Notes under the pieces: generated by a model | What the model was told of the DNA's origin: nothing | Database searches by the model: none | What the model saw: only the letters and a program-made list of their open reading frames with translations | Source of the DNA: Candidatus Aenigmatarchaeota archaeon | GTDB lineage: Archaea; Aenigmatarchaeota; Aenigmatarchaeia; CG10238-14; SCSR01 | Direction: 5' to 3' | Length of the DNA stretch: 47,695 bases | NCBI GenBank assembly: GCA_014238095.1 | Contig: JABABT010000006.1 | Coordinates: forward strand, 1-47,695 | Shown: positions 378 to 26,227 of the stretch, piece after piece | How positions within the stretch are numbered: the stretch's first letter is position 1 | Layout: the number at the start of each line of letters is the position of its first letter | Program-made: the position numbers and the translations under genes

Positions 378-444
378 ATTACAATTCACCTCTAAATGCT
401 ATTAAACTGTGTAAATTTCTAGGTTGTATGAACAAGAATGAAAC

Positions 445-510
445 CCTTGCCCCGTTCTTCTACATCATATACGGTTTGAAACCAAATCAGTAGAGGCTTT
501 TGAAGCAAGG
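445..510 (-). ncRNA. Candidate structured RNA with kink-turn (L7Ae/H-ACA-like or leader RNA)
   Basis: GC-richer island in AT-rich intergenic DNA. On the minus strand: outer stem CCTTGC/GCAAGG and inner TCTAC-UGA...UGAUG-UAGA with tandem G.A pairs, as in a k-turn. Confidence 0.35.
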
Positions 511-590
511 TAATAATTAATAATATTTGATAGTTAAAAAATTAATTAAAAATAAAAAAATAAAAAATTTTTAATGGTTATATTTTAAAA

Positions 591-9524: not shown

Positions 9525-9639
9525 GGGTCCATAGCTCAGCATGGTAGAGCACCTGGCTTTTAGCTTCTAGCGAAAAAGCGCTGATTCCAAGATGATGGAA
9601 GAAACCAGAGAGTCGTGGGTTCGAATCCCACTGGACTCA
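9525..9639 (+). tRNA. tRNA-Lys (UUU) with an intron of about 41 nt after position 37
   Basis: Acceptor GGGTCCA/TGGACTC plus discriminator A; D-arm GCTC..GAGC; anticodon stem/loop CCTGG-CTTTTA...A-CCAGA; T-arm GTGGGTTCGAATCCCAC. Extra sequence at about 9563-9603 interpreted as intron; exact splice sites not verified. Confidence 0.88.
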
Positions 9640-17829: not shown

Positions 17830-20800
17830 TTATTCATTTTTTAATATTGGATAATTTATTGTTGAAAATTCCCAAACATCAGAATCCCAGTTAGAATATA
17901 AATTAGTTATGGTTTGTTCAACTTGAAGTTCTGATGTTGTTTTTCCTATTCCACCAACTGATGTGGATTGACTTGATGTTTCAATATCCCAATAAGAATT
18001 ATATGTTTTTGTTCCAAAATCTCCAACTAATCCACCTACATAATTATTACCTGAAACTAAACCTGTTGAATATGAGTTTATTATTGTACCAGAAGCAGCA
18101 AATCCAACTAAACCTCCAACATCATTTGTTCCTGAAATTTGACCTGTTGAATATGAATTTTCTATTGTTCCTTTTCTATTACGACCAGATATTCCACCTA
18201 CTCCATCATTACCTGAAACTGATGCTGAATTTTTGCATTGTTTAATAAAACCCTCATTATATCCTCCTATTCCACCAACATATTCATCTCCTGATAATGT
18301 TCCTAAAACGGAACAATTTTCTATTGTTCCATCATTCCTTCCAACTATCATACCAACACTTCTTCCACCTGAAACATTACCTTCTATATTTAAATTAAAT
18401 ATTTCTGCTCCATCATTTAATATATTAAATAAACCTACATTATCTTCTACTGTGTCTATATTTAAATCTGTTATTGAATATCCATTTCCATTTAATGTTC
18501 CTGTGAATGTTCCTAATGGATTCCAATTAGAATAATATGATAAATTTATATTATTATTTAAAATAAAATAAGAATCTAAATAATTTCTTATTTTATTTAA
18601 CTCATTTGCTGTTTCTATTTGATATGGGTCTAATTTAGTACCATTACCACCAGAAAAATTTCTTCCAATAATTATTGGATAATTTATTGTTGAAAATCCC
18701 CAAATTTCAGAATCCCAATTAGAATATAAATTAGTTGTGGTTTGTTCAACTTGAAGTTCTGATGTTGTTTTTCCTATACCACCAGCTGATGTTGATCGAC
18801 CTGATGTTTCAATATTCCAATAAGAATTTATAATTTGTTCATTATTGTCATTATATCCAACTAATCCTCCAGTATTAGTATTTCCTGTAAGAACTGTAAT
18901 AACTGAAACTATAGAATATGAATTTTCTACTGTTCCACCATTATTACTTCCAACTAATCCACCATTTCCACCTCCACCTCCTGATAAATTCCCTTTTGCA
19001 TATGAGTTTTCTACAATTCCCCCATTAAGTCCAACTAATCCACCAATTAAGTTATGTTTCCCATCAGTATTTGTTATTGAATAAGAATTTTCTATATTCC
19101 CATTGTTATGTCCTACAAATCCACCAACAAAAAAATCTCCTAAAACTATTCCTAATGAATATGAATTTTCTACAAATTGTGAATTATATCCAATTAATCC
19201 TCCAACAGTACTAGTTCCTGATACTGTTCCTTTTAATAATGAATTTTTTATTTCTCCATTATTATTTCCAACTAATCCTCCAACTACTCTATTTCCCATT
19301 ATAGTTCCATTTACATATGAATTATCAATTATTCCTCTATTATTTCCAACTAATCCTCCAATATTATCATTTCCCATTATAGTTCCATTTACATATGAAT
19401 TATCAATTATTCCTTCATTTAAACCAACTAATCCGCCAGCATAATCATTACCATTAATATTTATATTTTCTACACCAACATCATATATATTCCCATAACT
19501 TAAACCAACTAATCCACCAACATAATTTAATGTTCCTAATATTTTCACATTTTCTAATTTAATATTTTTTATTTTAGAATTAGAAGATATAATCCCAAAT
19601 ATACCATAATAATTTGATGTAGATTTATTAATTATTAAATTTGTTATTCTATAACCATTTCCGTTTAATGTTCCTGAAAATGGATTTTCTAAATTTCCAA
19701 TAGGATCCCAGTTTGAATATGAAGATAAATCAATATCATTCATTAAAATATAATTAAAATTCAATTCTTTTCTTACATAATTTAATCCATCTGCATCTGA
19801 TATTTGATAAGGATTATTTATTGTTCCATCTCCACCTTCAAATTCATATATAATTTTCAATTTTGGATAATCTAAATCTGAAAATTCCCATCTAAATGAA
19901 TCCCAATTAGAATAAAGATTAGAGGAATTTTTTAATGATTTGAGTTCTATAGTTTTTTTTGCTGTTGGATCTAAAATTAATGATTGTGTTAATAATTGTG
20001 TATCCCAATAAGAGTCTGTTATATTTCCATTAAAATTAATACCAACTAATTTTGTAAAAATAAATCCTGTAAATATTACTGGTATTTGTGGATAATCTGT
20101 TGTGGAAAATGCCCATATTGAATCATCCCAATTTTGATATAAATTTGAAGATGTTTTTAATACTTGTAATTCTTCTATTGTCTTTCCTATACCATATATT
20201 GATGTTGATTGACCACTTGTTTCTGTGTTCCAATATGAATTTGTTACTGTTACTACTCCTGACCCATAAATATTTTTCCCTCCTATTAATCCACCTACAT
20301 TATTTTCATTAGTTCCTAAAACTTCTCCTATAGAGTAAGAATTTTTTATTGTTACTCCATTACTTATTTGTCCAACCAATCCACCTACATAACTCCTACC
20401 TGAAATTGAACTTATGGAATAGGAATTTGTTATAATTCCTTGACTCATATATCCTAATAATCCTCCTATACTATCATCACCATTTACTGAACCAATTGAT
20501 ACAGAATTTTCTATTTCATTAGATCCAAATGTATAACCAACTAATCCACCTACATTACTTAATCCTGATATTAATGATGAAGAATATGAATTTATTATTT
20601 TTCCATTTTCTCCATTTGATCCAACCAATCCACCTACAAGAGAATTACCTATAACATTAGTTGAACTCCAACAATTTTCTATCTCAGTATAAACACCATT
20701 ACCATTTAACCCAACCAATCCACCTATAACTAGAACTCCATCTATTGTTCCATTTGTAGAATAAGAATTTTGTATTTTACCTAAATTCCATCCTACAAGT

Positions 20801-21963
20801 GTTCCTACATAATAAAAACCCCCAATGTCAAAATCTTCTATTCCAATATTAATTATTAACCCATCATTAATTCCAAATAATCCTACATATGGTGTAGTTC
20901 GTTTATTTATTTTGAGTCCTGTTATTTTATACCCATTTCCATTTAATGTTCCTTTGAATGGATTAATTTCTGATGTTCCTATTGGATTCCAATTAGAATA
21001 TGAAGATAGGTCAATATCATTTTTTAAAACATAATTACCATTTAAATCATTTCTAATATTATAAAATTCTTCTGCTGTTGATATTCCTTCTAGAATAATA
21101 TTATCAGAATTATTTATTATTGAATATGAATTTGTTATTTTACCTATATTTTTCCCAACTAATCCACCAATATCTTTAAATCCTATTACTGAACCTACTA
21201 CATAAGAATTTTCTATATTCCCAGAATTTTGTCCAGTTATTCCTCCACCATTAATAATACCATTAATACTTACATCTTCTAATCCAATATTTTTAATAAT
21301 TCCATCATTCCAACCAAATAATCCAATAGAACTCCCAATATTTATATTATTTATTGTAACATTTATTATTTTATATCCATTTCCATCAAATGTTCCTTTA
21401 AATTTATTTTCTTCTGTACCTATTGGTTCCCAATTATCATAATTTAAATATAAATCATTAAGTAAAGTATAATTACCATTTAAATCATTTCTAATATTAT
21501 CTAAATCTTCAGGTGTTCTAATAAAATATTTCGTAGGTAAAACTAAACCTAAATTATTACCTATATAATCAGATTTTATATTAGTCGTTGTAGATAATAA
21601 ATTTAAATTAAAATTTATTTTCCTTTCATAATCTTTACACGGATAATCAATAATATAATCAAATTTTAATAAAAGATTCCTTTTTATTGTAAATTCTTTT
21701 ATAAAAATTTCATATTCTTTCAAATTCTTTTCAACTTCATAACAATTTTCACTCAATTTAATAACTTCTAAACTATTTTCCTTAATATTATTAAAAATAA
21801 AAATTTCATTTGGAATTATAGTAGAAGATGTATCTAAAGTAGCTGTTTGTATTAATTGACTAACAGCAAAAAATATTGTTACTATAATAAATCCAGATAA
21901 TACAAAAAATTGTGCTTTTTGTTTAGATTTTAACTTTAGTAAATTGTGCATGAGGTATTTCAT
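17830..21963 (-). CDS. Large GLUG-repeat surface protein (adhesin-like) with pilin-like N-terminal segment
   Basis: Many GGLVG.N.G.I.NSYS.G.V.G repeats (GLUG motif), modules of NGNYILMNDIDLSSYSNWDPIG...GTLNGNGY; N-terminus KQKAQFFVLSGFIIVTIFFAVSQ. Confidence 0.88.
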   Translation of the reverse strand: MKYLMHNLLKLKSKQKAQFFVLSGFIIVTIFFAVSQLIQTATLDTSSTIIPNEIFIFNNIKENSLEVIKLSENCYEVEKNLKEYEIFIKEFTIKRNLLLKFDYIIDYPCKDYERKINFNLNLLSTTTNIKSDYIGNNLGLVLPTKYFIRTPEDLDNIRNDLNGNYTLLNDLYLNYDNWEPIGTEENKFKGTFDGNGYKIINVTINNINIGSSIGLFGWNDGIIKNIGLEDVSINGIINGGGITGQNSGNIENSYVVGSVIGFKDIGGLVGKNIGKITNSYSIINNSDNIILEGISTAEEFYNIRNDLNGNYVLKNDIDLSSYSNWNPIGTSEINPFKGTLNGNGYKITGLKINKRTTPYVGLFGINDGLIINIGIEDFDIGGFYYVGTLVGWNLGKIQNSYSTNGTIDGVLVIGGLVGLNGNGVYTEIENCWSSTNVIGNSLVGGLVGSNGENGKIINSYSSSLISGLSNVGGLVGYTFGSNEIENSVSIGSVNGDDSIGGLLGYMSQGIITNSYSISSISGRSYVGGLVGQISNGVTIKNSYSIGEVLGTNENNVGGLIGGKNIYGSGVVTVTNSYWNTETSGQSTSIYGIGKTIEELQVLKTSSNLYQNWDDSIWAFSTTDYPQIPVIFTGFIFTKLVGINFNGNITDSYWDTQLLTQSLILDPTAKKTIELKSLKNSSNLYSNWDSFRWEFSDLDYPKLKIIYEFEGGDGTINNPYQISDADGLNYVRKELNFNYILMNDIDLSSYSNWDPIGNLENPFSGTLNGNGYRITNLIINKSTSNYYGIFGIISSNSKIKNIKLENVKILGTLNYVGGLVGLSYGNIYDVGVENININGNDYAGGLVGLNEGIIDNSYVNGTIMGNDNIGGLVGNNRGIIDNSYVNGTIMGNRVVGGLVGNNNGEIKNSLLKGTVSGTSTVGGLIGYNSQFVENSYSLGIVLGDFFVGGFVGHNNGNIENSYSITNTDGKHNLIGGLVGLNGGIVENSYAKGNLSGGGGGNGGLVGSNNGGTVENSYSIVSVITVLTGNTNTGGLVGYNDNNEQIINSYWNIETSGRSTSAGGIGKTTSELQVEQTTTNLYSNWDSEIWGFSTINYPIIIGRNFSGGNGTKLDPYQIETANELNKIRNYLDSYFILNNNINLSYYSNWNPLGTFTGTLNGNGYSITDLNIDTVEDNVGLFNILNDGAEIFNLNIEGNVSGGRSVGMIVGRNDGTIENCSVLGTLSGDEYVGGIGGYNEGFIKQCKNSASVSGNDGVGGISGRNRKGTIENSYSTGQISGTNDVGGLVGFAASGTIINSYSTGLVSGNNYVGGLVGDFGTKTYNSYWDIETSSQSTSVGGIGKTTSELQVEQTITNLYSNWDSDVWEFSTINYPILKNE
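17850..18830. repeat. Long duplicated segment inside the GLUG gene (copies at about 17850-17999 and 18680-18828)
   Basis: Both copies read aatttattgttgaaaa..cccaaa...agaatccca.ttagaatataaattagtt.tggtttgttcaacttgaagttctgatgttgtttttcctat.ccacca.ctgatg... with few differences. Confidence 0.85.
19295..19445. repeat. 78-bp (26-aa) tandem GLUG repeat unit
   Basis: cccattatagttccatttacatatgaattatcaattattcct occurs at 19295 and again 78 bp later at 19373. Confidence 0.9.
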
Positions 21964-25528: not shown

Positions 25529-26227
25529 TTATTCTTTTTTATTAACAAATGCTTTTATGGTTTTTAATTTTCTATTAATTTTTTCAACTGCTATATAAAC
25601 ATCTTTTACACTTCTAGCACCTGTAATAACAATTTTTCCACTTCCAAATAATAAAAATGCTACTTTAGGATTAGTCATTCTATGAACAAGTCCAGGGAAT
25701 TGTTCAGGTTCATATTCAGCATTTTCTAAATTGAAAGCTATTACATCAAGATTTAAATTTCTTTCCAATTTAGCTGAAGAAACTATATTTTCAGTTTGAA
25801 ATTTATAATCATTTGAAACTTTAGTTCCTATTTTTCTAATAATTAATGCTACTTTTCTAAATACTTCTTTAACATCTTTTAAACTTCTAGCTCCAGTACA
25901 TACAACCTTTCCAGATCCAAAAATTAAAGCTGCTGCTTTAGGATTAGTCATTCTATGAACAAGTCCAGGGAATTGTTCAGGTTCATATTCCATACCATCA
26001 TTTTTTTTACAAATTTTATTCAAATCTACAACAACATTAAATGCTGCAGAAGCAACTATATTTTCTATTTTTATACCAAATTTATTTTTTGTACTTATTT
26101 CAGGTTTTGATTTTGATGAAGTTTTCGAAAGTTTTGATTTTGATGAAGTTTTCGAAAGTTTTGATTTTGATGAAGTTTTCGAAAGTTTTGATTTTGATGA
26201 AGTTTTAGAAGTTTTTTTTGTTACCAT
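25529..26227 (-). CDS. tbp: TATA-box-binding protein with N-terminal Lys/Ser repeat tail
   Basis: Two saddle repeats (NIVASAAFNVVVDLNKI...EPEQFPGLVHRMTNPKAAALIFGSGKVVCTGARS and its second copy) preceded by KTSSKSKLS repeats. Confidence 0.95.
   Translation of the reverse strand: MVTKKTSKTSSKSKLSKTSSKSKLSKTSSKSKLSKTSSKSKPEISTKNKFGIKIENIVASAAFNVVVDLNKICKKNDGMEYEPEQFPGLVHRMTNPKAAALIFGSGKVVCTGARSLKDVKEVFRKVALIIRKIGTKVSNDYKFQTENIVSSAKLERNLNLDVIAFNLENAEYEPEQFPGLVHRMTNPKVAFLLFGSGKIVITGARSVKDVYIAVEKINRKLKTIKAFVNKKE
26104..26211. repeat. 27-bp tandem repeat x4 in tbp N-terminus
   Basis: gttttgattttgatgaagttttcgaaa starting at 26104, 26131, 26158, 26185 (last unit slightly diverged). Confidence 0.95.

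Follow-up and report, generated by a model that had tools for sequence, protein, structure and literature searches.

A conserved H/ACA-like hairpin RNA with a kink-turn in DPANN-type archaea

The locus and its hairpin

The window (the whole stretch of DNA analysed here, 47,695 nucleotides) carries near its first letter an integrase gene fragment that starts at 377, is cut by the contig end and matches archaeal XerA weakly (E 3.9e-5). Upstream of this fragment, on the minus strand at 445-510, lies a hairpin made up of a 9-bp lower stem, an internal loop of 7 + 5 nt, a 5-bp upper stem and a kink-turn (Table 1). Directly upstream of the RNA, also on the minus strand (597-752), there is an ORF of about 50 amino acids with Lys/Ala/Pro repeats (MPVMKKKTGKK...KKPAKKKASMKKPAKKK...), which resembles a histone H1-like or DNA-binding tail.

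The first-pass annotation had singled out the strip as GC-rich, as indeed it is (GC 0.37-0.40 versus ~0.07-0.2 in the flanks), and the segments of the fold that it named, CCTTGC (510-505) with GCAAGG (450-445), TCTAC-TGA (494-487) with TGATG-TAGA (467-459), and the inner GGTT/AACC, all lie where it placed them. The 6-bp lower stem that it drew proved too short by three pairs, the complete stem being CCTTGCTTC/GGGGCAAGG, and because this stem has 9 bp the internal loop shrinks from the proposed 8-10 nt per side to 7 + 5 nt. The fold energy of the strip by itself is mildly unusual (z = -2.1, with 7 of 200 shuffles equally good). Over the whole genome (516,096 bases) the strip attains the top score of a structural descriptor, 42, a score shared by a segment of 23S rRNA; this is a marginal excess given that shuffled sequence reaches up to 41. 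Energy alone and the genome-wide descriptor are therefore not decisive; it is conservation that makes the hairpin certain.

Table 1. Elements of the hairpin and its surroundings in the window
Feature	Positions	Strand	Evidence or remark
H/ACA-like sRNA hairpin	445..510	-	covariance-model homologues (n=20); covariation
Lower stem, 5' strand CCTTGCTTC, 9 bp with 445-453	502..510	-	covarying helix 1
Left guide AAAAGCC (5' strand of the internal loop), conserved in its inner GCC	495..501	-	
Upper stem, 5' strand TCTAC, partner 459-463	490..494	-	covaries: TCTAC/GTAGA, TCTGT/ACAGA, TTTAT/ATAGA
K-turn, 5' UGA (GA of tandem sheared pairs)	487..489	-	
Apical part with C-stem GGTT/AACC, a loop and a bulge of 3 nt	468..486	-	
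K-turn, 3' UGA	465..467	-	all 20 members
Upper stem, 3' strand GTAGA	459..463	-	covariation
Right guide AGAAC (3' strand of the internal loop); most relatives have (A/U)GCAC	454..458	-	
Lower stem, 3' strand GGGGCAAGG	445..453	-	covariation
UUC where 16/20 homologues have the ANA box; UCA one nt further	440..442	-	
TATA-like element TTTTTTAAC, ~28 nt upstream of the RNA start	533..541	-	

Homologues and covariation

A BLAST search of the strip against 57 related genomes returned four real members including the window's own, and a covariance model built from these four found about 20 members among the 156 genomes of the group. A second model, built from the 20 members, recovers all of them (20/20) with E values of 1e-8 to 1e-21. 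The family thus defined by the covariance models comprises the window's copy and 19 others, one per genome and all within the same phylum-level group; in the second-model search of the 156 genomes the members span six families, that is, 12 of 15 genomes of the window's family besides its own, plus five other families. That search gave no convincing member in the remaining genomes of the group, nor was any member found in 15 named genomes of other DPANN-type and unclassified archaea. Among the weak matches to the second model, L229 and L230 are apparently coding sequence by inspection, and L228 is a separate, HgcG-like H/ACA RNA that does not belong to the family.

The covariance analysis of homologous loci by which the proposal was to be checked thus furnished 20 members, and the covariation among them is strong. 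In the 20-row alignment, 94.9% of the cells of 11 pairs hold standard pairs, a percentage that leans toward the lower stem because the alignment was fitted to it, and two-sided changes occur in 10 of these 11 pairs. The compensatory types (UA/CG/GC, GC/AU/CG) are independent of the fitting. The covariation score amounts to 0.567, as against 0.296 +/- 0.027 in shuffled alignments (none of 500 shuffles reached it), and pairing falls to 53% when the partner is slid by one column. Within the lower stem, 96% of the cells are paired and eight of nine pairs show two-sided changes. When the sequences are read separately, each forms 12-14 of 14 pairs versus 9-12 in shuffles subjected to the same fitting. 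We take the strip to be a functional RNA, the product of a small-RNA gene.

Assignment to the H/ACA class

The kink-turn and the H/ACA-like layout that had been proposed from the window alone are kept in 20 genomes. H/ACA guides are recognised by a lower stem of 7-9 bp and a k-turn or k-loop 5-6 nt above the pocket, and here a 9-bp lower stem is combined with UGA...UGA above a 5-bp stem. The 3' UGA is present in 20/20 members and the 5' GA in most of them, several having AG instead. An ANA box (ACA, AUA or AGA, mostly ACA or AUA) follows exactly 2 nt past the lower stem in 16/20; the exceptions are G001 and G024 with AUU, the ambiguous G028, and the window copy. By fold, kink-turn, box and gene context, the RNA is of the H/ACA class, in a family without an Rfam match: the window RNA gave no hit to Rfam H/ACA models, and the homologues likewise gave none. 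Nor did any Rfam H/ACA model reach its gathering score in this genome (all of it scanned except ~32 kb in small contigs), and the genome-wide H/ACA descriptor brought up no other convincing H/ACA RNA there.

The genome encodes Cbf5 (317 bits, cutoff 238), Nop10 (E 5.9e-18) and L7Ae (E 3.3e-26); Gar1 was not found by a motif search in this genome, which is 93% complete. A TATA-like element lies upstream of 11 of the 20 members, compared with 1.9 +/- 1.3 at random positions, a count that is support rather than proof because the pattern was chosen after looking. Taken together, this points with good probability to an independently transcribed single-hairpin H/ACA-class sRNA of a DPANN-type archaeon that would most likely place a uridine at Cbf5. 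By analogy with the structures of archaeal H/ACA RNPs, L7Ae would bind the kink-turn, while Cbf5, Nop10 and Gar1 would occupy the pocket, the lower stem and the box region; in the particle so assembled, a uridine of some RNA would most likely come to lie in the active site of Cbf5 for presumed pseudouridylation.

Search for a target

Which RNA might this be? The first-pass annotation had proposed a complementarity of the internal loop to rRNA, and rRNA is the target of most known archaeal H/ACA RNAs (PMC7991803, PMC4652768). The pairing rule applied sets aside an unpaired uridine and the one nucleotide that goes with it; the right strand pairs on their 5' side and the left strand on their 3' side. 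By this rule every uridine in 11 aligned LSU and 13 SSU sequences was scanned, in all registers that skip 0-3 inner nucleotides. The best aligned uridine was matched by 3 genomes, as compared with 3-7 for permuted guides, in a set with some incomplete SSU sequences, where misalignment could mask a target in variable regions. A mismatch-tolerant rRNA scan likewise stayed within the range of the permuted guides, so that the proposed complementarity was not borne out. No shared target site emerged from tRNAs (three genomes), SRP and 5S RNAs (two genomes) or RNase P RNA (the window's genome).

Several individual candidates were set aside. At the 16S site AUUC[UG]GGCUA of the window's genome, the relatives carry CCCC or other sequence. 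The 16S sequence GUGC-AU-GGC complements GCC/GCAC, but lacks a uridine where the target should be and is mismatched in the window's genome, and the 23S sequence GGUUCAGCUUUU is not kept by the relatives. The SRP RNA of the window's genome offers a 10-bp site, UGUUC[UA]GGUUU, the predicted equivalent of which is absent from the SRP RNA of a relative (G018), and the occurrences of GUGCUAUGGC, common to three genomes, are coding coincidences.

Is it conceivable that an ordinary rRNA pseudouridine guide is at hand, whose target was missed through a wrongly drawn pocket or through short or mismatched pairing? The predominance of rRNA among the known targets and the fact that several of the MAG rRNAs are split or incomplete speak for this explanation, which we nevertheless hold to be possible rather than likely, given that no column rose above the permuted-guide control across the 11 LSU and 13 SSU sequences in any register. 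The best reading is that of an orphan H/ACA-like RNP RNA, the target of which was sought without success; for this reason, and because the box is missing from the window copy, we do not claim strict membership among the guides. A more far-reaching version, namely a widely conserved archaeal H/ACA RNP for which neither rRNA nor tRNA contains a pseudouridine target and which either modifies an unexpected RNA or acts without modification like snR30/U17, seems to us on the unlikely side; no archaeal H/ACA RNP of this kind is known (PMC7991803).

Pocket geometry and a possible non-guide role

In productive archaeal guides, the GA stem has 10 stacked layers, the 3' guide strand 5-6 nt and the lower stem 9 bp, with 14-15 nt to the ANA box (PMC4652768). 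If the pocket of the present RNA is left open (5-bp stem alone), the GA stem counts 8 layers, a number that occurs in folds of the non-productive kind. A C-G pair between l6 and r2 (in the left strand, the C preceding the final one; in the right strand, the G) is possible in 19/20 members, and if it closes the pocket with one stacked mismatch, the GA stem reaches 10 layers and the distance to ANA is exactly 14 nt. The conserved GCC/GCAC may therefore form intramolecular, structural pairs rather than pair with a target, a question that covariation cannot settle because these letters hardly vary across families.

One alternative is an H/ACA-class RNA without a part in guiding pseudouridylation, whose RNP would have a structural or rRNA-processing role like that of eukaryotic snR30/U17. 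In its favour, GCC and GCAC are conserved across families while the outer left pocket varies; furthermore, at no uridine target do the real guides beat the permuted ones. The apical loop, which is normally not conserved in guide RNAs, reads AUGAGUYAAGC almost identically in five homologues from two families (L033, L034, L037, L041 and L049), and its part AUGAGUCAAGC is also conserved in several members. Nevertheless, we judge this alternative quite improbable: in its ANA box, 14-16 nt ruler and k-turn spacing the family matches catalytic guides, the conserved pocket letters can be read as intramolecular pairs, and an snR30-like role in archaea has been judged unlikely (PMC7991803). Besides the H/ACA fold without a known pseudouridine target, the likeness to snR30/U17 is limited, as the latter has two hairpins, pairs with rRNA at the bottom of the pocket and is eukaryote-specific, whereas the present RNA is a single hairpin. 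We know of no archaeal homologue of snR30.

Relation to known archaeal H/ACA RNAs

The closest counterparts of the orphan H/ACA-like RNA are the archaeal single-hairpin guides of the Pyrococcus Pab/Pf and Afu46 type (PMC7991803, PMC4652768), with which it shares the pocket set between a 9-bp lower stem and an upper stem topped by a k-turn, the presence of Cbf5, Nop10 and L7Ae genes and, for most members, an ANA box that sits 14-16 nt beneath the top of the pocket. It differs from them by the short 5-bp stem above an open pocket, the degenerate box of the window copy, and the lack of a recognisable rRNA target and of an Rfam match. The Pyrobaculum RNAs sR203-sR210, as described in PMC4652768, resemble it in the k-turn hairpin, in atypical H/ACA features and in the variant boxes tolerated in the genus, but have no lower stem, whereas the present RNA has a full, covarying one of 9 bp. 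HgcG/Pab40 (RF00064) belongs to the same class of H/ACA sRNAs, but its guide strands differ (GUUAGC.../GUGUUA) and the family does not match RF00064. An HgcG-like RNA does occur in a genome of the group: the sequence at L228:1501-1576 (+) in G103, apparently unannotated, is HgcG/Pab40-like with an AUA box and matches RF00064 with E 1.7e-6 but at 35.7 bits, which falls short of the gathering score (77).

What is the significance of such a family? It adds a covariation-supported small RNA, unmatched in Rfam, to uncultured tiny-genome archaea, in which H/ACA biology is, to our knowledge, almost unstudied. Because it occurs in most genomes of one family and yet has no recognisable rRNA target, it offers a test case for the action of archaeal H/ACA particles outside rRNA, which is an open question (PMC7991803).

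The window copy and its neighbourhood

The earlier remark that no ACA box sits at the 3' position was right for the window copy, which has UUC there, but does not extend to the family, 16/20 homologues having ANA. These 16 carry it at the 14-16 nt from the pair closing the pocket that guides require; the window copy has lost the standard box (UUC, or the shifted UCA) and may bind more weakly. Could it be a decaying pseudogene? The replacement of ANA by UUC and of (A/U)GCAC by AGAAC would fit such decay, which we consider very unlikely in view of the 14/14 pairs of both stems and the two UGA elements that are still intact, and of the relatives with similar departures, i.e. the AGAAC right strand that recurs in G024 and the AUU boxes of G001 and G024. 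The window copy also illustrates that the ANA box can be lost while all other elements are kept.

The conserved neighbour of the RNA is leucyl-tRNA synthetase (LeuRS), which is encoded within ~6 kb in 14/20 genomes; aRF1 is found in 13/20, and a metallophosphoesterase gene neighbours the RNA in 10 of the 20. No member was seen close to LeuRS in 80 named archaeal loci. The adjacency of LeuRS and aRF1, with aRF1 51-53% identical to that of named Nanoarchaeota/Aenigmatarchaeota MAGs, hints at an affiliation in that direction, while by 16S rRNA every named genome that has a 16S is at roughly the same distance (70-79%). That the hairpin serves as an L7Ae-responsive leader of the integrase gene, as had been suggested from its k-turn upstream on the same strand and as L7Ae-bound k-turn leaders on the archaeal L7Ae gene itself might encourage one to think (PMC6298567), can hardly be upheld, since the RNA has its own promoter-like element, the integrase adjoins the window copy only and none of the 19 homologues, and the homologues terminate in an ANA box, many with an opposite-strand gene next.

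Other features of the window and its relatives

In four related genomes (G015, G016, G010 and G013; L076-L079, L080), the 16S matches break at model position 828, which suggests that the SSU gene is split or intron-bearing there, and in several relatives the SSU measures 1.9-2.6 kb and the LSU up to 4.1 kb. Elsewhere in the window, a 115-nt tRNA gene at 9525-9639 (+), found by Rfam and missed by ARAGORN, is apparently intron-bearing. On the minus strand, a TATA-binding-protein-like ORF (25529-26227) bears an N-terminal array of KTSSKSKLS repeats, and an ORF of 1377 amino acids (17830-21963) contains many GGLVG...ENSYS repeats like those of large surface proteins.
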